From Acidobacteriota bacterium (GTDB taxonomy: Bacteria > Acidobacteriota > Terriglobia > UBA7540): DNA of 37,481 nucleotides. Positions 4,229 through 27,935 of the stretch are shown piece after piece (positions within the stretch are counted from its first letter, which is position 1; each line of letters begins with the position of its first letter). The stretch spans positions 1-37,481 of the forward strand of contig QHZN01000077.1 in assembly GCA_003225365.1 (NCBI GenBank). Reading direction: 5' to 3'. Both the position numbers and the translations under genes were made by a program. The notes beneath the pieces were generated by a model. That model was not told where the DNA came from. It searched no databases and saw only the letters and a program-made list of their open reading frames with translations.

Positions 4229-7072
4229 ATGTCACGAGCTTTCGAGCCCTCAGGCATCCATCCAATAAGACCCCCTGAAATGACTGTGACGCGCGACGGG
4301 TTTGAGGAAACGGTCCGAGCGTCGCGATTTGTCCGAGCTTCTTCTGCGTCTCTGGCCCTGGCTGCGTGCTGCCTTTTGATTGGCGGGCAAGCACGGGGGC
4401 AAGGCTCAGATCAAGCCCGATTGGCCGAATCTGGCGAATTCTTCGAGAGCAAGATCCGGCCAGTCCTGTCGAGCCGTTGCTATACCTGCCACACCGGCCT
4501 CAAGAGCGGCGGCTTGCAACTGGACTCGCGGCAAGGCGCCTTGAAAGGCGGCAATGACGGACCGGTGATTGTGCCCGGCCATCCTGAGGACAGCCTGCTG
4601 GTGAAAGCCATCAGCCACACCCACGAGCGCATCAAGATGCCGCTCAACGGCCCCAAGCTCGATGACGAGACAATCGAGAATTTCAAGAAGTGGATCCGCG
4701 ACGGCGCGGTCTGGCCTGAATCCCGGGAGGAATTCTTCGACGCGCGAGTGCGGCCCGTGCTGTCCAAAAACTGCTTGTCTTGCCACGGCGTGGCGCCGCA
4801 GGGCGGGCTCCTTCTCGATACGCGCGAGCATCTCCTGAAGGGCGGGCAATCGGGCGCCGCGGTTGTGCCGGGCGATCCGGAAAAAAGCCTGCTGATACAG
4901 GCTGTACGGCAGGGGGGCGAGCGTTTGAAGATGCCGCCCGGAACGCGGCTTTCCGACCAGGAACTCGCCGACTTGGTGGAATGGGTGAAGCAGGGCGCGG
5001 CCTGGGCCGGTGGTGCGCTGGCCGCGGGGAGTGACGATTATCGGATCACTCCGGAGCAAAAGGGGTTCTGGTCTTTCCAGCCGCCGGCCAAGCCGTCGAT
5101 TCCGAAGGTCAAAAAGGCCTCCTGGGCGCGGACTCCAGTGGACAGCTTCATCATGGCCAAGCTCGAGGCGAAGGGACTGCAGCCCGCGCCGGCCGCCGGC
5201 AAGCGCGTTCTGATTCGCCGCGCCACTTACGATCTGACAGGTCTGCCTCCCACCCCGCAAGAGGTCGAAGGTTTTCTTGCGGACCGATCCAAGCAGGCCT
5301 TCGCGAAAGTCGTCGACCGCCTGCTCGCTTCGCCGCACTACGGCGAGCGCTGGGGGCGCCACTGGCTGGACGTGGTGCGTTACGCCGATACGGCCGGCGA
5401 CAGCGCGGATTATCCGGTCCCGCAGGCATATCTCTATCGCAATTACGTGATCTATTCCTTCAACCGCGACAAACCCTACAATGAATTCATCCGCGAGCAG
5501 ATTTCCGGCGACCTGTTGCCGGCAAAGTCCGACGCCGAGAAATGGGAGCACACGGTCGCCACGGGCTACCTGGCCATCGCCAAGCGGTTCAGCGTCAAGC
5601 CGGAAAACTACAAGTACTTGACCATCGACGACACCATTGACAATCTGGGCAAAACCTTCCTCGGCCTCAGCGTCGCGTGCGCGCGATGTCACGACCACAA
5701 ATACGATCCCATCCCTTCCAAGGACTACTACGCGCTCTACGGCATTCTGGACAGCACGCGTTACCCGTTCGCGGGCTCGGAGAACATCAACGAGCAGAGA
5801 GATTTTGTTTACCGGCTGCCGCAAGAGAAAGTCGAAGCCAGCCTCAAAGCCTATAACGACCTCCTGAAGCCGCTCGACGCGCGACTGGACCAGCTTGAAA
5901 AGGAAAAGACGGGCCTGGACAAGGCCGGGGCTGGGACGGATGCCGCCCTCCATCCCGTCGTCGCCCATCGCACGGTGGAGGAGATCGACAAGGAAATCCG
6001 AGAGATCAAAAAGCAGCGCCAGAAAATCCGAGCCGAAATGCCGATCCTGGAGGCCGCTTATGCCGTGGCGGAAGGCGCCCCGCATGATGCGCCCGTGCTC
6101 CTGCGCGGGGATCCCGCCAAGCAAGGCGAGGTGGTGCCACGTCACTTTTTGCAGATCCTGGGAGGCCAGTCACTGCCCCGCGACGATAAATCGAGCGGCC
6201 GCCTCGAGCTGGCCCAATGGATTGCTGATCCCAAGAATCCACTGAGCGCCCGGGTGATGGTGAATCGCATTTGGCAGAATCACTTTGGCAGAGGCATCGT
6301 CGCGACGGCCAGCGACTTTGGGAGGCGCGGAAAAGCGCCCACCCATCCCGAATTGCTCGACTACCTTGCCACGCGCTTTGTCGAGAGCGGCTGGTCCATA
6401 AAGGCCATGCACCGCCTCATCATGCTCTCGCGGGTGTATCAGCTCGAGAGCGACGGCCCGCCTGAAAACGCTCGGATCGATCCAGGCAACGATTTATACT
6501 GGAGATTCAACCGGCAGCGGCTGGACGCGGAGTCCATTCGTGACGCGATGCTCAAAGTAAGCGGGGACCTCGATCCGACCGTCGGCACCGCGCATCCGTT
6601 TCCGCCGCCGGCAGTATGGAATTGGACGCAGCACAACCCCTTCGCGGCCGTGTATGACACCAACCGGCGAAGTGTCTACTTAATGGTGCAGCGCAGCCAG
6701 CGGCATCCTTACCTCTCGGTCTTCGACGGCGCAGACCCGAACGTGAGCACGGCGGAGCGCACCAGCAGCGTCACGCCGCTGCAAGCGCTGTTCGTGATGA
6801 ACAGCGAGTTCATCCAGGAGCGCTCGGAGCGGTACGCCGCGCGGCTGATGGACGCCGAGCCCGATGACGCTCGGCGCCTGGACCTGGTTTTCGAGTCAGC
6901 GTTCGCCCGGCCCCCCGCGCCCGAGGAACAGCAGCGGGCGCTCGCCTATTTGAGCCAGAGCCGGAAGATGCTGGAGGCTGCGGACGTGAGTCCGGACCGC
7001 GTGACCCAGGAGTCCTGGGCAAGCTTCCTGAGGGCTGTCCTGGCGAGCAACGAATTTATTTATATCGATTGA
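4229..7072 (+). CDS. PSCyt1-DUF1549-DUF1553 (PSD1) protein with two tandem cytochrome modules
   Basis: The 947-residue exported protein belongs to the planctomycete-type cytochrome C/PSD1 family. After a signal segment (residues 36-58, ASLALAACCLLIGG) come two tandem PSCyt1 modules. The first holds CYTCH (C84, C87, H88) and the second CLSCH (C182, C185, H186); each begins FF(E/D)x(K/R)xRPVLS and ends near KxWIRDGA or VEWVKQGA. DUF1549 follows (about 280-500, with ARCHDHKYDPIPSKDYYALY) and DUF1553 forms the C-terminal third (SARVMVNRIWQNHFGRGIV). The function is unproven; such proteins are usually paired with DUF1501 partners and suspected of surface polysaccharide or sulfated-glycan breakdown. 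The N-terminus is uncertain: Met1 at 4229 leaves a long lead, and the Met at residue 18 is possible. The downstream DUF1501 gene follows after 9 bp, so the two form an operon. Confidence 0.88.
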   Translation: MSRAFEPSGIHPIRPPEMTVTRDGFEETVRASRFVRASSASLALAACCLLIGGQARGQGSDQARLAESGEFFESKIRPVLSSRCYTCHTGLKSGGLQLDSRQGALKGGNDGPVIVPGHPEDSLLVKAISHTHERIKMPLNGPKLDDETIENFKKWIRDGAVWPESREEFFDARVRPVLSKNCLSCHGVAPQGGLLLDTREHLLKGGQSGAAVVPGDPEKSLLIQAVRQGGERLKMPPGTRLSDQELADLVEWVKQGAAWAGGALAAGSDDYRITPEQKGFWSFQPPAKPSIPKVKKASWARTPVDSFIMAKLEAKGLQPAPAAGKRVLIRRATYDLTGLPPTPQEVEGFLADRSKQAFAKVVDRLLASPHYGERWGRHWLDVVRYADTAGDSADYPVPQAYLYRNYVIYSFNRDKPYNEFIREQISGDLLPAKSDAEKWEHTVATGYLAIAKRFSVKPENYKYLTIDDTIDNLGKTFLGLSVACARCHDHKYDPIPSKDYYALYGILDSTRYPFAGSENINEQRDFVYRLPQEKVEASLKAYNDLLKPLDARLDQLEKEKTGLDKAGAGTDAALHPVVAHRTVEEIDKEIREIKKQRQKIRAEMPILEAAYAVAEGAPHDAPVLLRGDPAKQGEVVPRHFLQILGGQSLPRDDKSSGRLELAQWIADPKNPLSARVMVNRIWQNHFGRGIVATASDFGRRGKAPTHPELLDYLATRFVESGWSIKAMHRLIMLSRVYQLESDGPPENARIDPGNDLYWRFNRQRLDAESIRDAMLKVSGDLDPTVGTAHPFPPPAVWNWTQHNPFAAVYDTNRRSVYLMVQRSQRHPYLSVFDGADPNVSTAERTSSVTPLQALFVMNSEFIQERSERYAARLMDAEPDDARRLDLVFESAFARPPAPEEQQRALAYLSQSRKMLEAADVSPDRVTQESWASFLRAVLASNEFIYID

Positions 7073-7081
7073 GGAGAACCC

Positions 7082-8467
7082 ATGGCCGACCATTCCAACT
7101 GTGGATGCACCCGCCGTGATAGTCTGCGATCGCTTCTTGGAGCCTCGCTGGTTTTTCCGGCGATCTTATCCGACCTTCTGGCCGCCGATGGGCCCGTCTC
7201 CAGCGACGCGAATCCGCTCGCGCCCAAGCCCCCGCACTTTCCGCCCAGAGCCAAGCGAGTGATCTTTTTGCACATGAGCGGCGGCGTCTCGCACGTCGAT
7301 ACGTTCGATCCCAAGCCGAAACTCATCGCGGATCACGGAAAAACGACGGCGGGAGGCAAGTATCTCTCGCGACCCAAGTGGAACTTCCGGCCGTACGGGA
7401 AGTCCGGCACCGAGATCAGCGATCTTTTGCCGCACATCGGTGAGTGCGTTGACGACTTGTGCGTCATCCGCACCATGAAGAACGACCACGGCGATCACTT
7501 CGAGGCCACGCTCGGCATTCATACGGGCTCGGTGACGTTCACCAGGCCCAGCATCGGCGCCTGGGTGAGCTATGGGTTGGGAACCTTTAACCAGAATCTG
7601 CCCTCGTTCATGGTTCTCGCTCCCCAACTGCCTTACGCCGGCAGCCAGGTGTGGGGATCGGATTTTCTGCCCGCAGTTCACCAGGGGACGCGAATCGTGC
7701 CCGGCCCCGAGCCGATACCGAACTTGCAGCCGCGCGCGCCGTCACCCGAGATCCAGGAGATGGAGCTGGGTCTCATCGATTTCTTTAACCGCCGGCACCT
7801 GGGCGAGCGCGAATCGGATGCCGCTCTGGCGGGACGGATCAAATCGTTCGAGACGGCTTTCCATATGCAGAAAGAGGCGCCGGAGGCCTTCGACCTCTCC
7901 AAAGAGTCGGACTCGACGCTGAAGCTCTACGGGCTCGAGCGCGGCACAACGAGCGGCTTCGGGTGGCAGTGCCTGGTGGCGCGGCGGCTGGCCGAGCGCG
8001 GGGTACGATTCGTTGAACTGATCGACTCGGGTTCCAACACCAACTGGGACGCGCACGGCGATATGCAGACTTGCGTGCCGCTGGCGAAGAATATCGACCA
8101 GCCCATCGCCGGGCTGCTGAAGGACTTGAAGTCGAGGGGGATGCTTCAGGATACGCTGGTGGTATGGACCACCGAGTTTGGCCGAACTCCATTCTGCGCC
8201 CAGCCCGATGCCAAGGGCCGCGAGCATCACGCCCGCGCCTACAGCTCATGGCTGGCGGGGGGCGGCGTGAAGGGCGGAATCACTTACGGACAAACCGACG
8301 ATTACGGCATCGAGGTCGCATCCGATCTGATGCACATTCATGATTTCCACGCCACCATTTTGTATCTGCTCGGCATGGATCACACCCGGCTCACCTTCCG
8401 TCATGCCGGCCGAGACTTCCGGCTCACCGATGTCGCCGGAAGAGTTGTAAAAGAAATCATGGTTTGA
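7082..8467 (+). CDS. DUF1501 family protein, Tat-exported
   Basis: The 461-residue protein of the DUF1501 family has an alkaline-phosphatase/sulfatase-like fold. Its N-terminus has a twin-arginine signal (TRRDSLRSLLGASLVFP, R11-R12), so it is probably exported folded with a metal bound. Typical family segments are VIFLHMSGGVSHVDTFDPKP, a central DQPIAGLLKDL, TEFGRTPFC and GREHHARAYSSWLAGGG with a closing HDFHATILYLLG. GAGGAGA sits 4 nt before ATG 7082, and the PSD1 stop is only 9 bp upstream, so translation is probably coupled. The pair is conserved in Planctomycetes, Verrucomicrobia and Acidobacteria. A hydrolase acting on sulfated or phosphorylated glycans is often suggested but not shown. 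Nothing notable lies in 8468-8579. Confidence 0.88.
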   Translation: MADHSNCGCTRRDSLRSLLGASLVFPAILSDLLAADGPVSSDANPLAPKPPHFPPRAKRVIFLHMSGGVSHVDTFDPKPKLIADHGKTTAGGKYLSRPKWNFRPYGKSGTEISDLLPHIGECVDDLCVIRTMKNDHGDHFEATLGIHTGSVTFTRPSIGAWVSYGLGTFNQNLPSFMVLAPQLPYAGSQVWGSDFLPAVHQGTRIVPGPEPIPNLQPRAPSPEIQEMELGLIDFFNRRHLGERESDAALAGRIKSFETAFHMQKEAPEAFDLSKESDSTLKLYGLERGTTSGFGWQCLVARRLAERGVRFVELIDSGSNTNWDAHGDMQTCVPLAKNIDQPIAGLLKDLKSRGMLQDTLVVWTTEFGRTPFCAQPDAKGREHHARAYSSWLAGGGVKGGITYGQTDDYGIEVASDLMHIHDFHATILYLLGMDHTRLTFRHAGRDFRLTDVAGRVVKEIMV

Positions 8468-8579: not shown

Positions 8580-9362
8580 TTATTCACTCATATTCGCTCG
8601 GGGCTTGAATACGAAGTCGAGAGTTTTAGTCTCACCCGCCGCAATCGTCACCTTTTGCGTTAGCGTGCCGAACTTTTCGTGCCAGGCTGCGATAGCGTAA
8701 TTACCTGGCGGCAAGTTCTTCAGACTGAAGCTTCCGGTCGCGCCAGTTACCGAGAAATAGGGGTGCTTGAAGACGGCGATATAGCACCTCATCCAGGCAT
8801 GGATATTGCACTTCACGGGGATCGCAATTTCCTCTCGCGCGAAGCTTTCTTCCAAAGGCGGCAATCCCGGAGGTTGCGACCGGTTCCATTCACGATTGTT
8901 ACTCGGAAGCGGGTGAATGTTGTGGGAGGTCGGGTCGCTGTTTACGACTTGCAGCTTCTGGTTGGACTGCAGTGCGACTACATGCGGGTGAAATTGACAG
9001 CCCTTCTGTTCAATCACTACTGGGTCCGAGGGCGGGTCAAAGGTCGAGTTGGGGACCCCCTCGGAGATATACACGATGGCGTTCTGAAGAGTGCCGTTCG
9101 CACCCGCGACGACTTCTTCCGTCAGGGGAGGCGTTGGATGTGCCTTAACGCAGATAGGCTCCTTGGCCATATTGATAGGCTTGCCTTTCGGAGCAGGCCC
9201 ATCGAGTTTGACCAAACCGGTGAGAGTCCCCGTGGCCTCTGCCCTCACGACAGGCACCAGGGTCTGTCCAGCCTCTTCCGAGACAGTTCCCCCTTTATGG
9301 AGGGGAGGGTTTGAAAGAATTGATGCTGCAATAGTTAAAACACACAAACGACTCCGTTTCAT
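8580..9362 (-). CDS. Cupredoxin-like protein with carboxypeptidase-regulatory-like C-terminus
   Basis: The exported 260-residue protein has a cupredoxin-like core at about residues 90-205 with SHNIHP, then VKCNIHAWM, which supplies the Cys, His and Met expected of a type 1 copper site with the earlier His. Residues 205-255 (GSFSLKNLPPGNYAIAAWHE) form a carboxypeptidase-regulatory-like beta domain. This matches proteins often labelled methylamine-utilisation-like or plastocyanin-like. As last gene of the unit after a dihaem cytochrome and a haem-bearing outer-membrane barrel, it probably carries electrons in the periplasm or at the outer membrane. The signal region is odd: SILSNPPLHKGGTVSEE is coded by an intergenic-type palindrome (9288-9306), which lengthens the segment between the hydrophobic core and the mature protein. 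Copper binding is inferred. Confidence 0.75.
   Translation of the reverse strand: MKRSRLCVLTIAASILSNPPLHKGGTVSEEAGQTLVPVVRAEATGTLTGLVKLDGPAPKGKPINMAKEPICVKAHPTPPLTEEVVAGANGTLQNAIVYISEGVPNSTFDPPSDPVVIEQKGCQFHPHVVALQSNQKLQVVNSDPTSHNIHPLPSNNREWNRSQPPGLPPLEESFAREEIAIPVKCNIHAWMRCYIAVFKHPYFSVTGATGSFSLKNLPPGNYAIAAWHEKFGTLTQKVTIAAGETKTLDFVFKPRANMSE
9288..9306. repeat. Short palindrome of the 'PPLHKGG' type inside a coding region
   Basis: TCCCC (9288-9292) and GGGGA (9302-9306) flank CTTTATGGA-like loop sequence, and the element continues as GGG. On the minus strand it reads as PPLHKGG within the cupredoxin signal region. I know similar C-run/TTTA/G-run palindromes as dispersed intergenic repeats in several phyla. 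No second copy is visible here. Confidence 0.45.
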
Positions 9363-9397
9363 GGCTTATTTCCTATCTCCCCGGATTAACTTTTCGG

Positions 9398-10318
9398 TCA
9401 TTTCGACCCAGAAACTGCCCGTAGAGCATTTCGAATCGAGCGTCCCGGCTGCCTGGCCGGGCTTGTCTTCACCGCTCCGTTGTTCGCTGAGTTCTCATAG
9501 TTCATTTGCAGCGTGCGCAGATAATGGACTAGATCCCAGGCCTGATCTGGTTTGAGATCCTTGAGATAAGAGGGCATGGGAGTCCCGTCCAGTCCGGTCA
9601 TGAAAATGCGGTAGAGGTCCTGGTTGGTCTGGCCGCATTTGAAGCGTTCCCCGGTCGTGAAGTCATACGGCACGATCGGCCTGTCCTTGCTGTCGGTCAG
9701 GGTGGAGGCCGACGGGCCGTCTCCGCGTCCACTCAGGCCATGGCATTTTGCGCACTCCATCTTTTTGAATATTTCAAGTCCCCGATTGAGGCTCTCTGGA
9801 CTCGCGGGGGGCTCTGGCGGTACTGGGACCACAGGTTCGGGCTTCTCTTCGTGGAACCGTGGAGAAAATGTTTTTACGTAAGCAATGAGATCTATGCGCT
9901 GTTGCCGCGTCAGAGGGAACCAGGAAGGCATAGCGCTGGCATGGAGACCCCGCCCTAAGGTTTCGTACAGGTCCATGTCCGTCGGAATGTGGCCCGTATC
10001 CGTGGATCGGCACTTGAAGACGCCAGCCGTGAAGTCTCGCGGTCTTGGATCGAGATAAGGGGCATTTTCGCCCTGCCCATTCCCTAAGACCCCGTGGCAA
10101 CCCACGCAATAGCGCCGGTAGAGTTCCTTGCCCCGTTTCAGGCTTCCCGTTACGTTGCCGATGCGGGTTTGCTGAGCAAAACAGACCGCGCTGGGCAACG
10201 TGGCCGGCAAGATAGCGGCGAGAATCGCCAACACGGGGAGCCTGAAAGCTTGAGGACGCAGGCGTCCAACCCGCGCTCGTGACGCCTTTTCATGCTCGAT
10301 GCTTCGTTCGGTCCACAT
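9398..10318 (-). CDS. Periplasmic dihaem cytochrome c
   Basis: This 306-residue protein has an N-terminal membrane/signal segment (about 24-48, LPVLAILAAILPATLPSAVC) and two class I cytochrome c domains. The first holds CVGCH (C71, C74, H75) with axial Met in SAMPSW; the second holds CAKCH (C189, C192, H193) with axial Met in TPMPSYL. A proline-rich linker (about 158-176, EPVVPVPPEPPASPES) joins them. A longer frame opens at 10357, but ATG 10318 is chosen because GAGG lies 5 nt upstream. The gene starts 28 bp after the barrel gene and ends 35 bp before the cupredoxin gene, so the three are probably one transcript. It likely shuttles electrons between the inner membrane chain and the outer-membrane haem protein. 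Confidence 0.88.
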   Translation of the reverse strand: MWTERSIEHEKASRARVGRLRPQAFRLPVLAILAAILPATLPSAVCFAQQTRIGNVTGSLKRGKELYRRYCVGCHGVLGNGQGENAPYLDPRPRDFTAGVFKCRSTDTGHIPTDMDLYETLGRGLHASAMPSWFPLTRQQRIDLIAYVKTFSPRFHEEKPEPVVPVPPEPPASPESLNRGLEIFKKMECAKCHGLSGRGDGPSASTLTDSKDRPIVPYDFTTGERFKCGQTNQDLYRIFMTGLDGTPMPSYLKDLKPDQAWDLVHYLRTLQMNYENSANNGAVKTSPARQPGRSIRNALRAVSGSK

Positions 10319-10346
10319 GTGAACCTCGTCTAAGCAATTTCTCTTG

Positions 10347-11738
10347 TCAAAAGGCAAAGTCGAAGCCCATCAGGAAACTGCTGGTGGTTTCGTCTTGCCC
10401 GGTAAGCGGCGCAGCGCCCCGGATGCGAACGCGGGCGAATTCCTGGTGCCAGGCCAGCCCAGCGCGGCTGGTCATGATGGGATACCAGCGATAACCCAGG
10501 ACCGCTGCGTCGGTATTGCCGAAGTCTGGCGTCAGGGGCACGCCGTTAGGGAGCGGCGTTCCAATCGGGAACGCCTGGCGAGAGACCCTAATGGCCTCGT
10601 ATCGGGCCACCAGAGTGAGCTGCGGCGACCACGTGTAGTGCGTCTCGACGAAACCGCCGTTCCACGTCGGGGCCTGCGCGCCCGGCGGCAGGGCCATTGG
10701 CTGGTTGGCCGGGGTGCCGGTGCCGAGAAATACGTTGTCCTTGCCGTGCATGTACAGCGTGCTGAAGTCCAGCTTGTGGATGTACCAGATGCCGTAGGCC
10801 CCGGCGCGGTAAAACGGGCGGTTGCCGCGTCCCGTGCCCGGAATCGGTGCGCCGCCCGAGGTCAGGAAGAACGTGGGCGATTCGCCACGGTAGACGTAGC
10901 CGCCGACCCTCTGCAGCCCGAGGTCGTGAAACTCAAAGGCCTGGTTCACGTTCGCGTAAAAGTCGTAGGTCTGATTCGTGGGTAGATCCACATCGCCGTT
11001 GTTACTGCTCAGGAGCGACACGGCGTAGCGCGTGTAGCTGTTGCGCGAGTGGCCCATTAGCTCGACCCCCAATTGGTTGTCGCCGATTCCGCCGAAGCTG
11101 TTGATGTCGCTGGTGGCGGTGAAGTGGTACAACTGGAAAAAGCCGCCGCTGGCCGTCAGGGTTAGAAAGCGCTTCTCGGAAATCGGCGTGTCGAGCTCAT
11201 GTTTGCCGACCTTGAGATTGAGCCAGCGTGAGCCGAGAAGATTGTCGAACCGGACCCAGGCCGCTTCGAAGTGGAAATTCCCGCTCGCGTCTGCGGACGG
11301 AAGTACAAGGAAAGAAATGTTCTTGGACAGCGTTCCCGCTGTCCACAAGTCCAAGCCCGAAAGATCGAAGCCCGAAGCCGTAACGTTCGCTTCCGTGAGC
11401 CCGCTCGCGGCATCGCCGGGAGTATGGTCGACGGCCATGCGATTGTTGTTCTCCCGGTGCCACTGCGGCGTGATTCGAAAACTTACGGGCCAGTACGACG
11501 GCTGCTGATCAATAGGCGCATCGCGGTCGTTCCCTAATTGATAGCCATTATCCTTAAAGACTTGCCCGAAATTGTTCAACTTCGGCCAGGCCTCGTGACA
11601 CGCCGAACAGCGAAGCGCGTATTTCCGAGCAAAGGCCGGGATTGCAAACGCGCGAGGAGTTGGGCTGAAAAGCAGCCAGCAGAAACTTAATATGATGGCA
11701 CCAACGAACGCGCTGACATTCGCCTTCCAATAAGACAT
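10347..11738 (-). CDS. Outer-membrane beta-barrel protein with N-terminal CxxCH haem motif
   Basis: The 463-residue protein has a signal segment (residues 8-32), then one haem-attachment motif, CSACH (C44, C47, H48), in the context RKYALRCSACHEAWPKLNNF. The rest is rich in alternating aromatic/polar strands (FHFEAAWVRFDN, TRYAVSLLSSN, YRAGAYGIWYIHKLDFSTLY) and ends with a terminal Phe (SFLMGFDFAF), the usual outer-membrane insertion signal. It looks like a 14-18-stranded porin with a single haem at its periplasmic mouth. With the dihaem cytochrome and cupredoxin genes downstream it could pass electrons across the outer membrane. The start at 11738 is chosen over 11813 because GGAGGGG lies 6 nt upstream and the signal segment then sits at the N-terminus. 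The barrel is inferred from pattern, not computed. Confidence 0.75.
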   Translation of the reverse strand: MSYWKANVSAFVGAIILSFCWLLFSPTPRAFAIPAFARKYALRCSACHEAWPKLNNFGQVFKDNGYQLGNDRDAPIDQQPSYWPVSFRITPQWHRENNNRMAVDHTPGDAASGLTEANVTASGFDLSGLDLWTAGTLSKNISFLVLPSADASGNFHFEAAWVRFDNLLGSRWLNLKVGKHELDTPISEKRFLTLTASGGFFQLYHFTATSDINSFGGIGDNQLGVELMGHSRNSYTRYAVSLLSSNNGDVDLPTNQTYDFYANVNQAFEFHDLGLQRVGGYVYRGESPTFFLTSGGAPIPGTGRGNRPFYRAGAYGIWYIHKLDFSTLYMHGKDNVFLGTGTPANQPMALPPGAQAPTWNGGFVETHYTWSPQLTLVARYEAIRVSRQAFPIGTPLPNGVPLTPDFGNTDAAVLGYRWYPIMTSRAGLAWHQEFARVRIRGAAPLTGQDETTSSFLMGFDFAF

Positions 11739-11969: not shown

Positions 11970-13115
11970 TCAGTGGTTCCGAACGCCTGGGGCTATGATC
12001 TTGCCGAAGAGTCCATGGCTCTCGCCAAAGAGTCCCGCAGTAAAGAACAGCTCGTTCGTCTGGCCCGCTACGTTGCCATTGCCGAACGTGAGTCCCCATA
12101 GCCCATCAATCGCAACGGGCTGACCAAGGTTGCCTCTAAGCTGTCCGACGAAAGAGTGCCCTTGCAGTTTGAACCCGTTGATCCGGCCGTCGCCGAAGTT
12201 CCCCACTAACAAATCACCTGAGAATTTTCCGAAATGGTCGGGGGCAAGAGCCAAGCCCCAAGGGGAGTTCAGCGTGCCGCCCGTGGCAAAGCGCTGAACA
12301 AAATTGCCGTTGAGGTCAAACACGTCAACGAAGCCACTCCCCAAACCTGCCACGTCGTCGTGTCGCTCCGAATCTTGCATGGCGAAAGTTACATAGAGAC
12401 TGCCGTTGATGTTGCGAATGCCGAAAGGCGCGAATCCGGGGTCAGCCGCGTCCGGCGTAATTCCAGGGTCCGTAAATGACTTCATGAAGGTGAAGGTTCC
12501 GTCGTACATCTCCACGACCCCGTCACGAAAATTGGTGGCGTAGATAAAATTCCCGGAGCCGTTATTCCCGTTAGCAAGGCCTTTGTAAACGGCGCCTAGG
12601 GTCGAGCCGTCTGCTCCACCTGGCGCTGAATTGTCGGCCGCCAGAATGGCATTGCAGAGATCGACGCCGGGGCTCCAACCGGCGAGCGTCCCATCCTCGG
12701 TGGCGAAGAGGAATCGAGCTGGCGCCGATGCGCTGTTTTCAGAAACAACAAAATCCGAGGTGCCGTTGAAGACGATACCCGTGGGTGTGCCGGAACCGCT
12801 TGCCCCTGAAGGGGGCGGGATCATTATCGCCGGCGAACATCCCAGAGAAATTGGATTGCCACTGCCGTCGTAGAGCGTGGTCGCGCCGGCATTGTTGTCC
12901 GAAATCCAGAAAGGACCGTGTGGGGGAAATACAACGCCCCAGGGGTTGATCAAATTAGGGTCGAACGTGGGAGCGAGACCATTTAGATCTGAAACAAGAT
13001 TATGCTGTTGATAGAACTGCGCCCTGGCTGGGATGGAAGAAGTTGCCAGCGCACTGGCCACCAACATCATCAACCCCAATCCGCTTTTGCGACTCAATGC
13101 AAATAATGCTCTCAT
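11970..13115 (-). CDS. TIGR03118 family beta-propeller protein, secreted
   Basis: A 381-residue protein with a signal peptide (LMMLVASALATSSIPARAQ) is followed by family-typical segments: QQHNLVSDLNGLAPTFDPNL, INPWGVVFPPHGPFWISDNN, ATNFRDGVVEMYDGTF, PFGIRNINGSLYVTFA and LLVGNFGDGRINGF. These are NHL/SMP-30-like propeller blades. The family is uncharacterised; many members end in a sorting tail, but this one stops at APGVRNH with no sorting signal. GAGGAGG lies 4 nt before ATG 13115. It is upstream of and co-directional with the cytochrome unit, but a 231-bp gap separates it from the barrel gene, so joint transcription is uncertain. That gap (11739-11969) holds no evident gene. Confidence 0.85.
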   Translation of the reverse strand: MRALFALSRKSGLGLMMLVASALATSSIPARAQFYQQHNLVSDLNGLAPTFDPNLINPWGVVFPPHGPFWISDNNAGATTLYDGSGNPISLGCSPAIMIPPPSGASGSGTPTGIVFNGTSDFVVSENSASAPARFLFATEDGTLAGWSPGVDLCNAILAADNSAPGGADGSTLGAVYKGLANGNNGSGNFIYATNFRDGVVEMYDGTFTFMKSFTDPGITPDAADPGFAPFGIRNINGSLYVTFAMQDSERHDDVAGLGSGFVDVFDLNGNFVQRFATGGTLNSPWGLALAPDHFGKFSGDLLVGNFGDGRINGFKLQGHSFVGQLRGNLGQPVAIDGLWGLTFGNGNVAGQTNELFFTAGLFGESHGLFGKIIAPGVRNH

Positions 13116-26178: not shown

Positions 26179-26312
26179 TAGGGTCGGTATCCAAGCGATG
26201 GCGAGAGCAGGAGGAAATGTCCGAAACCCACACCTCTCCAATTCCGGATGACCGAGGCGGGAGGCCCCGTCAGGTTGAGCCGCTCTGCTCGGACGTGTAG
26301 GATGGAATCTTG

Positions 26313-27935
26313 ATGACAACGGTTCCCTACGCACGCGTGCCGCGGTCGAGTGCGCTGTTTCTCGACTTCCTGAACAATTTCGAGCGCGTAAACAGTTTCT
26401 ACGACCGCCGCCCCTTCGAGCCCTCGGCATACATGGCCGCGGCCACTGAGCTGCGCGGAAAATTTGGAGACCGCCGCGCGCTTGTGGACATACTGGAAGC
26501 TCAAAACCGCACGTTCAGATGTTCGGAGAAAACGCTCGAGAATATTCGCCGCTTGATCTCCCCCGACACCTTCGCCGTGGTCACCGGCCAGCAAGTGGGC
26601 CTCGTCTCAGGTCCAGCCTTTACCCTCTACAAAGCTTTGACCGCTGTCCGCCTGGCCGAGCACTTGACCGAGAAAGGTCTTGCGTGCGTTCCGGTGTTCT
26701 GGCTCGCGACGGAGGACCACGATCTAGAAGAAGTGGCGGCGGCGAAGACGCTTGACGACGAATACAATCTGGTTCAACTAAAAGACCCCGGCCAGGCGCC
26801 TGCCCCGCGCGCGCCCGTGGGCCGAATCCGTCTGACGGCCACGATTACCGAGATCTTGAAACGGCTGGAAGACTTGACGCCGCCAGGCGAGCCGCGCGAC
26901 CGCCTGATGGCGGATTTAGGCGCGAGCTACCAGCCGGGGGAGACCTGGGGCAACGCCTTCGCGCGGCTCATGGCGCAGCTGTTTGCGCCCTGGGGCGTGG
27001 TGTTGCTCGACCCGCTCGACGAGGCCGTTCACCGACTCGCCCGGCCGGTCTACGAACGGGCACTTCGCGAAGCCGAACCCGTGCGCCGGCGGCTTCTCGC
27101 GCGCTCGGAGGCTCTTGTCCGCGCGGGCTATCATGCGCAAGTCCACATTGCCGATGACTCGACAACCCTGTTCCTTTTCTGTGATGGCAGCCGCCAGCCG
27201 GTGACTTTTCGCGACGGCACGTTTTTTGTTGACGACGCGAAGCCCATCTCCGCCTCCCTGCTTCAGGAGCAGGTTCAATCGAACCCTTTCAATTTCACAC
27301 CCAACGCGTTGCTCCGGCCGGTGGTTCAAGACACGCTCCTTCCAACCGTCGCCTATGTGGCGGGAGCGGCCGAGCTCGCTTATTTCGGCCAGGCGCTGGC
27401 CCTTTACGAGCCGCTGGGCAATCGGCCCCAGCCCGTAGTTTTTCCGCGCGCCGGCTTTACGCTCGTGGATCGGCGCATAGAACGGCTGATGGAAAAGTAC
27501 GGAGCGACCGTGGAAGACGCCTGGAAAGGCGAGGAGCAGCTTTCGAACAAAGTGGCTTCGAATGGATTCTCGGCCGGTTGGGCGGAGCGATTGGAGCGGA
27601 GCGAAAAGGAACTCGGCGAAATGCTCGAGGGCTTGCAGAAAGAGGTGGCGGCGATTGACCCCACGTTGGTGGATTCGGTGGGCCACGCGCGCGACAAGAT
27701 GCTTTACCAGGTCGGGCGGCTGAAGGGAAAGATCGCCCGCGCCACGCTCGAACGCTCCGAACTTCTGGCCCGTCACGAGCAGTCCCTGGCACGGTTTTTG
27801 GCGCCTGCGAAGTCGCTTCAGGAACGCGAAGTCTCCGGGATCTATTTCCTCGGCCGCGCCGGCTACGGGTTGCTCGAGCGGCTCCTCGAAGCCATCCGCA
27901 CGGATTCCTGCGAACATCACGTGATGGTTTATTAG
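26313..27935 (+). CDS. bshC: Bacillithiol biosynthesis cysteine-adding enzyme BshC
   Basis: This 540-residue protein catalyses the last step of bacillithiol synthesis, adding cysteine to glucosaminyl-malate. Family markers are the N-terminal SSALFLDFLNNFERVNSFYD, VVTGQQVGLVSGPAFTLYKA, VPVFWLATEDHDLEEV (the HIGH-like region of a nucleotidylyl-transferase fold) and LRPVVQDTLLPTVAYVAG followed by GPAE-like GAAELAYF. A C-terminal coiled coil (LERSEKELGEMLEGLQKEV) leads to a YFLGRAGYGLLERL end. The length equals Bacillus BshC (539). ATG 26313 follows AGGATGGA; a TTG directly before it is less likely. It stands alone, with bshA and bshB not in the window. Bacillithiol is a thiol substrate that could supply persulfides to the dioxygenase at 429-1838. 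Confidence 0.92.
   Translation: MTTVPYARVPRSSALFLDFLNNFERVNSFYDRRPFEPSAYMAAATELRGKFGDRRALVDILEAQNRTFRCSEKTLENIRRLISPDTFAVVTGQQVGLVSGPAFTLYKALTAVRLAEHLTEKGLACVPVFWLATEDHDLEEVAAAKTLDDEYNLVQLKDPGQAPAPRAPVGRIRLTATITEILKRLEDLTPPGEPRDRLMADLGASYQPGETWGNAFARLMAQLFAPWGVVLLDPLDEAVHRLARPVYERALREAEPVRRRLLARSEALVRAGYHAQVHIADDSTTLFLFCDGSRQPVTFRDGTFFVDDAKPISASLLQEQVQSNPFNFTPNALLRPVVQDTLLPTVAYVAGAAELAYFGQALALYEPLGNRPQPVVFPRAGFTLVDRRIERLMEKYGATVEDAWKGEEQLSNKVASNGFSAGWAERLERSEKELGEMLEGLQKEVAAIDPTLVDSVGHARDKMLYQVGRLKGKIARATLERSELLARHEQSLARFLAPAKSLQEREVSGIYFLGRAGYGLLERLLEAIRTDSCEHHVMVY

Follow-up and report, generated by a model that had tools for sequence, protein, structure and literature searches.

A putative Cyc2-type electron conduit with a dihaem cytochrome and a cupredoxin in Acidobacteriota

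Cyc2 proteins are defined, in the excerpts of Keffer et al. (2021, PMC8406198), by the sequence AXPXFAR[Q/K][T/Y] upstream and PXL downstream of a CXXCH haem motif, the first of which is described as 'unique to Cyc2', and iron-oxidising activity is reported there for members of each of the three Cyc2 clusters. In the Acidithiobacillus rus operon, cyc2 is followed by genes for a dihaem cytochrome and a cupredoxin, and then by coxB, coxA, coxC, and cox4, according to the portion of PMC10654088 consulted. The barrel design and the occurrence of Cyc2 homologues in Acidobacteriota are already known: four of six Cyc2-bearing metagenome-assembled genomes belong to Acidobacteriota in an extract of PMC10367259, and homologues of Cyc572 from Acidobacteria are listed in PMC10654088, also in extract. 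However, no description of an acidobacterial arrangement of cyc2, dihaem cytochrome, and cupredoxin genes, with or without cox genes, was found in the open-licence PMC literature. In this study, such a cassette was analysed on contig QHZN01000077.1 of assembly GCA_003225365.1 from an Acidobacteriota bacterium (37,481 nt, the entire stretch being called the window; contig C212 of the 5.16 Mb assembly). The cassette comprises a barrel gene, a dihaem cytochrome gene, and a cupredoxin gene on the minus strand, spaced by 28 bp (barrel to cytochrome) and 35 bp (cytochrome to cupredoxin), exactly as described in the initial annotation of the window. It probably encodes a Cyc2-family outer-membrane conduit with two dedicated periplasmic carriers, by which extracellular electrons, with Fe(II) as their likeliest source, would reach an oxidase and oxygen.

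Judged by its sequence and predicted structure, the barrel protein appears to be of the Cyc2 type. It holds exactly one CxxCH (CSACH, residues 44-48), within the N-terminal string AIPAFARKY-ALR-CSACH-EAW-PKL (window sequence AIPAFARKYALRCSACHEAWPKL), and with 463 aa it is above the 365 residues that are the least expected of a Cyc2 protein with a porin barrel. It resembles Cyc2 and Cyt572 of Acidithiobacillus, Mariprofundus, and Leptospirillum in its signal region, single CxxCH, both flanking motifs, porin barrel, and similar length. Its relatives were collected as 30 loci from genome contigs, the named ones being Acidobacteriota and two Gemmatimonadota. The complete Cyc2 expression, AXPXFAR[Q/K][T/Y] with CXXCH and PXL, is matched by 24 of these loci, and four more deviate solely by a G in place of the first A. 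The barrel N-terminus is included in 29 loci, as the gene of L026 is broken by a contig end, and 28 of them retain the CxxCH; therefore, the motif is not there by chance. In L004 (5988-6060), the motif is gone through a deletion that leaves an upstream ATG out of frame, while the near-identical barrel copy of L045 (genome G073) retains it; the loss in L004 reflects either misassembly or decay. The K-Y form of the signature seen in the window was found in 78 of 84 scanned rows, among which loci overlap and genes are repeated. The Q-T form occurs in a second copy in the same genome and in a plasmid protein of Caballeronia.

The AlphaFold model of the barrel protein, built from 28 aligned proteins, is a porin (pLDDT 77.8, pTM 0.76), so that both the predicted barrel and the conserved CxxCH, on which the initial annotation had made its claim depend, were found. 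The top two Foldseek matches of the model are OprP (2o4v) and OprO (4rjw). With VIA-align, porins are matched at Z 24-25 over residues of about 80-463, and PorB structures 3a2s, 4aui, and 3wi4 at Z of about 25, with an rmsd of 3.1-3.2 A over 295-303 residues. OprO and OprP are also the modelling templates reported for Cyc2-PV1 in the excerpted PMC8406198, and 4AUI and 3WI4 those for Cyc572 in the extract of PMC10654088. By sequence, neither a Pfam or NCBIfam family above cut-off nor a relative among solved structures was found for the barrel. In a sample of 396 genomes of the phylum, 107 match the barrel profile (E <=0.001), most of them over the haem segment only, as is expected for a family with a fast-diverging porin part.

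The second protein contains two CxxCH motifs (C71-H75 and C189-H193), both of which are invariant in all 26 aligned proteins, in agreement with the two-haem cytochrome that had been annotated. It matches Cytochrom_C and Cytochrome_CBB3 in Pfam. Chain B of 6h5l is its single close solved relative (E 5.6e-57 over 210 residues, covering both haem sites); a phmmer search of the PDB returned 16 sequences at E <=0.001, none of them labelled as cytochrome c4 or 1H1O. We take 6h5l to be an anammox HAO-like protein from Kuenenia with a small dihaem partner. The window protein differs from that chain in its signal and C-terminal regions, and its cassette has no HAO-like gene. The best NCBIfam match, cytochrome 579, fell short of the cut-off of 280 with 49.6 bits and was given no weight as evidence.

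The third protein was correctly annotated as cupredoxin-like. Residues 112-198 of its model align with plastocyanin (7pcy) at Z 12.2 and 1.7 A over 84 residues, and its Foldseek matches include both amicyanin and plastocyanin. H147, C185, H188, and M191, which are invariant in 25 of 25 aligned proteins, supply the His, Cys, His, and Met set of a type-1 copper site within the predicted cupredoxin fold. The C-x2-H-x2-M loop is as in amicyanin. Unlike plastocyanin and amicyanin, with which it shares the fold, this cupredoxin lies inside another domain, which is transthyretin-like: residues 45-255 match carboxypeptidase D (1qmu) at Z 11.7, and the protein matches the Pfam family CarboxypepD_reg. 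A sequence search of the PDB gave no rusticyanin at E <=10; the relation to cupredoxins in general is seen in the Foldseek comparison of the predicted fold. From these motifs and this fold, it would appear that haem is attached to the barrel protein and the cytochrome and that copper is bound by the cupredoxin. Within the cupredoxin gene, in the region that codes for the N-terminus, there is also a palindromic stretch, CCCTCCCCT followed by AAAGGGGGAA (window 9287-9309), that has no counterpart in the aligned relatives; a dispersed repeat was considered and dropped, as there is one exact copy in the genome.

The grouping of the three genes is conserved. Among the 30 loci, the dihaem gene is present in 27 and the cupredoxin gene in 24, and all three occur together in 24. 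These counts come from the three-gene co-occurrence survey, in which L015 and L021 show their dihaem genes; in the table of cox neighbours, both genes were masked by an overlap filter. The partners missing at L009, L020, and L027 coincide with contig ends; L005, L006, and L032 are without one or both partners despite kilobases of remaining sequence. In a sample of 299 genomes of the class, the barrel was found in 36 (E <=1e-40) and the cupredoxin in 231 (E <=1e-50). In 34 of the 36 barrel genomes, no more than about 5 kb separates the barrel from a cupredoxin of this family on the same contig (two listings matched by eye), and in the other two the barrel sits at a contig end. Downstream and in the same direction, coxB is found at 16 of the 30 loci and coxA at 15, followed by coxC and cox4 where the sequence continues; the CuA motif is intact in 15. 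Gene order varies: in L007 the cupredoxin gene is located upstream of that for the barrel, and in L004 and L008 an uncharacterised gene pair is inserted. The genes of this pair stand beside the cassette in 17 and 18 loci, divergent upstream or between cassette genes (e.g. L017 744-2165(-) and L019 4229-5332(-)), and one of them has a weak SH3-like match.

The electron conduit that the initial annotation had proposed is supported by the match to the Cyc2 signature, by the predicted porin, and by the recurrent company of the dihaem cytochrome, the cupredoxin, and, in 16 of 30 loci, cox genes. In such a chain, the N-terminal haem segment of the barrel would be reduced by a donor outside the cell, dissolved Fe(II) being the most likely one, and would pass the electron to the dihaem cytochrome and from there to the cupredoxin, which would reduce an aa3-type cytochrome oxidase and thereby oxygen. 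We infer this order of carriers, Fe(II) as the donor, and the inward direction. A precedent for the middle step comes from A. ferrooxidans, in which the cupredoxin AcoP accepts electrons from dihaem cytochrome c4 in vitro, in solution, according to the excerpt of PMC5982212.

The oxidase in this genome would be the one encoded on contig C338 (locus L041, 2295-13544), where a paralogous cupredoxin gene precedes coxB-coxA-coxC-cox4 and follows genes for a Rieske protein, a split cytochrome b, and a 1125-aa multihaem cytochrome; by reading, ctaA-like and ctaB-like genes come after the cox genes. Besides the gene in the window, the genome has two cupredoxin-family genes at E <1e-60, and a fourth match is weak. 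Contig C263 (locus L039, 12090-18636) encodes a second Cyc2-like porin of the FARQT type, a cupredoxin, a multihaem cytochrome, a molybdopterin-type subunit, and a 4Fe-4S protein. The likeness of its multihaem cytochrome and molybdopterin-type subunit to QrcA and QrcB is below cut-off, and the cluster is read as a putative ActA/ActB-type (Qrc-like) complex; a Cyc2-type conduit is thus apparently wired to a quinone-linked complex. Across most of its sequence, the Cyc2-like protein of C263 resembles, at 34-41%, proteins encoded on plasmids of Caballeronia, Acidiphilium, and Acidithiobacillus. Overall, the cupredoxin family stands with a Cyc2-type conduit twice, with an oxidase once, and with a quinone-linked complex in two of three places, and it may serve as an exchange point for electrons.

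Several observations weigh against the chain from Fe(II) to oxygen. The haem part of the barrel, residues 25-78, is modelled at pLDDT <50 and therefore the CSACH segment could not be placed inside the barrel or at its mouth, so that the structure prediction the initial annotation had proposed gave the barrel and not the placement. The Cyc2 authors themselves caution, in the excerpted PMC8406198, that distant members of clusters 2 and 3 may function otherwise. The window copy has no adjacent cox genes, and 8 of the 30 relatives are without them although at least 4 kb of downstream sequence is present. A search for a sigma-70-like promoter found none, a result of little weight here. No match to the RuBisCO large subunit was found in the genome, the completeness of which is estimated at 91.7%; therefore, the organism is not an obvious Calvin-cycle iron autotroph.

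This last point also fits an unlikely but credible variant, in which the same inward conduit is fed by a donor other than Fe(II), such as reduced humic substances, an excreted shuttle, or Mn(II). Many of the relatives are apparently metagenome-assembled genomes from soil or peat, and numerous organisms that are not known as iron oxidisers have Cyc2 homologues, according to the excerpts of PMC8406198; however, the functionally tested Cyc2 proteins in the literature consulted are reported to oxidise Fe(II). It seems quite improbable that the conduit runs outward and carries periplasmic electrons through the dihaem cytochrome and the barrel to Fe(III) or humics under oxygen shortage. The carriers are reversible in principle, and cupredoxins of this family also stand beside the bc-type complex and the putative ActA/ActB (Qrc-like) complex, but in 16 of 30 loci the cassette stands with the genes of an oxidase that reduces oxygen, and a copper carrier ahead of an oxidase would better suit a chain from donor to oxygen. 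The transport or copper/oxygen-sensing role that the initial annotation had allowed, i.e. a solute porin with a sensing haem or a copper- or oxygen-responsive uptake system, survives as a very improbable reading, since the predicted fold of the barrel is that of an ordinary porin but its partners conserve two more haem sites and all four ligands of a type-1 copper centre, with respiratory neighbours in the 16 cox-bearing loci.

The cassette appears to be patchy within its lineage. In the class sample, the barrel was found (E <=1e-40) in this genome only within family f1, of which 38 other genomes were included; for this reason, contamination was considered. The hrcA-grpE-dnaJ flank matches a genome of the same genus (G500), and the PSD1/DUF1501 flank one of the same family (G518), each at about 77% nucleotide identity; the cassette was not found in the compared stretches of either genome. 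Therefore, the contig is native to the lineage, and the patchiness of the cassette points to acquisition by transfer or to loss in other members. In a tree of 43 barrel rows (28 of alignment A1, without L025, L026, and L027, and 15 others picked by hand from the collected loci, one further candidate row yielding no sequence), the window protein groups with L005, L004, and L045 with support of 88/91, under the star threshold of the tree, the deep forks of which are unsure owing to long branches. A single origin of the cox-linked form was rejected because the tree requires eight changes of the cox label, with early-ending contigs scored as 'no cox' and the rows labelled 'other' unscored; therefore, cox linkage comes and goes.

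Features of the cassette in the window
Feature	Position	Strand	Evidence
Putative Cyc2-type fused monohaem cytochrome-porin, 463 aa	10347..11738	(-)	motifs, alignment, AlphaFold model, fold matches
AIPAFARKY, residues 32-40, as published Cyc2 signature AXPXFAR[Q/K][T/Y]	11619..11645	(-)	
CSACH c-type haem motif, residues 44-48	11595..11609	(-)	
PKL, residues 52-54, PXL motif downstream of CXXCH	11577..11585	(-)	
Porin barrel, about residues 82-463	10350..11495	(-)	predicted structure and fold matches
Periplasmic dihaem cytochrome c, 306 aa, related to chain B of PDB 6h5l (Kuenenia)	9398..10318	(-)	
Haem motif 1, CVGCH, residues 71-75	10094..10108	(-)	
Haem motif 2, CAKCH, residues 189-193	9740..9754	(-)	
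Cupredoxin inserted in transthyretin-like (carboxypeptidase-regulatory) domain, 260 aa	8580..9362	(-)	
Cupredoxin domain, residues about 112-198; candidate type-1 copper ligands H147, C185, H188, M191	8769..9029	(-)	

Immediately upstream of the barrel gene lies a gene for a TIGR03118 family protein (PEP-CTERM-associated; window 11970-13115(-)). On the other side, at window 4229-8467 and convergent to the cassette, are two genes whose pairing is best known from Planctomycetes, one for a PSCyt1/PSCyt2/PSD1 protein that contains CxxCH motifs and the other for a DUF1501 protein. A BshC-type gene of bacillithiol synthesis is found at window 26310-27932.

Acidobacteriota are abundant in peat and acid soil. 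With a dihaem cytochrome, a cupredoxin, and in many cases an oxidase conserved beside it, the bare presence of Cyc2 becomes a specific, testable respiratory chain. If this chain is real, oxidation of iron or extracellular electrons by Acidobacteriota becomes testable in a cultured strain, and the cassette together with cox genes would be a better genomic marker than Cyc2 by itself. It can be tentatively proposed, at somewhat less than an even chance, that soil Acidobacteriota and some Gemmatimonadota encode a full chain from the outer membrane to oxygen in one operon, with a rus-like order and partly non-orthologous carriers, that the rus-like layout has more than one origin, and that a capacity for oxidation of iron or extracellular electrons has been overlooked in a dominant soil phylum.

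With MtrCAB-type systems, the cassette shares a barrel and c-type haem across the outer membrane. However, the haem is fused to a small porin, and with one CxxCH in the barrel, two in its partner, and no multihaem protein in the cassette, an MtrCAB-type complex is ruled out. The 'different design' of the initial annotation therefore holds in relation to MtrCAB, but not as a novelty, since Cyc2 is already known to combine a monohaem segment and a porin in one fused protein. The relatives with cox genes (barrel, dihaem cytochrome, cupredoxin, coxB, coxA, coxC, cox4) have the order of the rus operon, whereas the window has its first three genes only. In the PDB search at E <=0.001, the dihaem protein retrieves the Kuenenia cytochrome and not cytochrome c4 (1H1O), a probable difference from the rus operon, and the cupredoxin lies within a transthyretin-like domain. 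Because of this anammox-like dihaem protein and the transthyretin-embedded cupredoxin, the likeness to the rus operon looks partly convergent.

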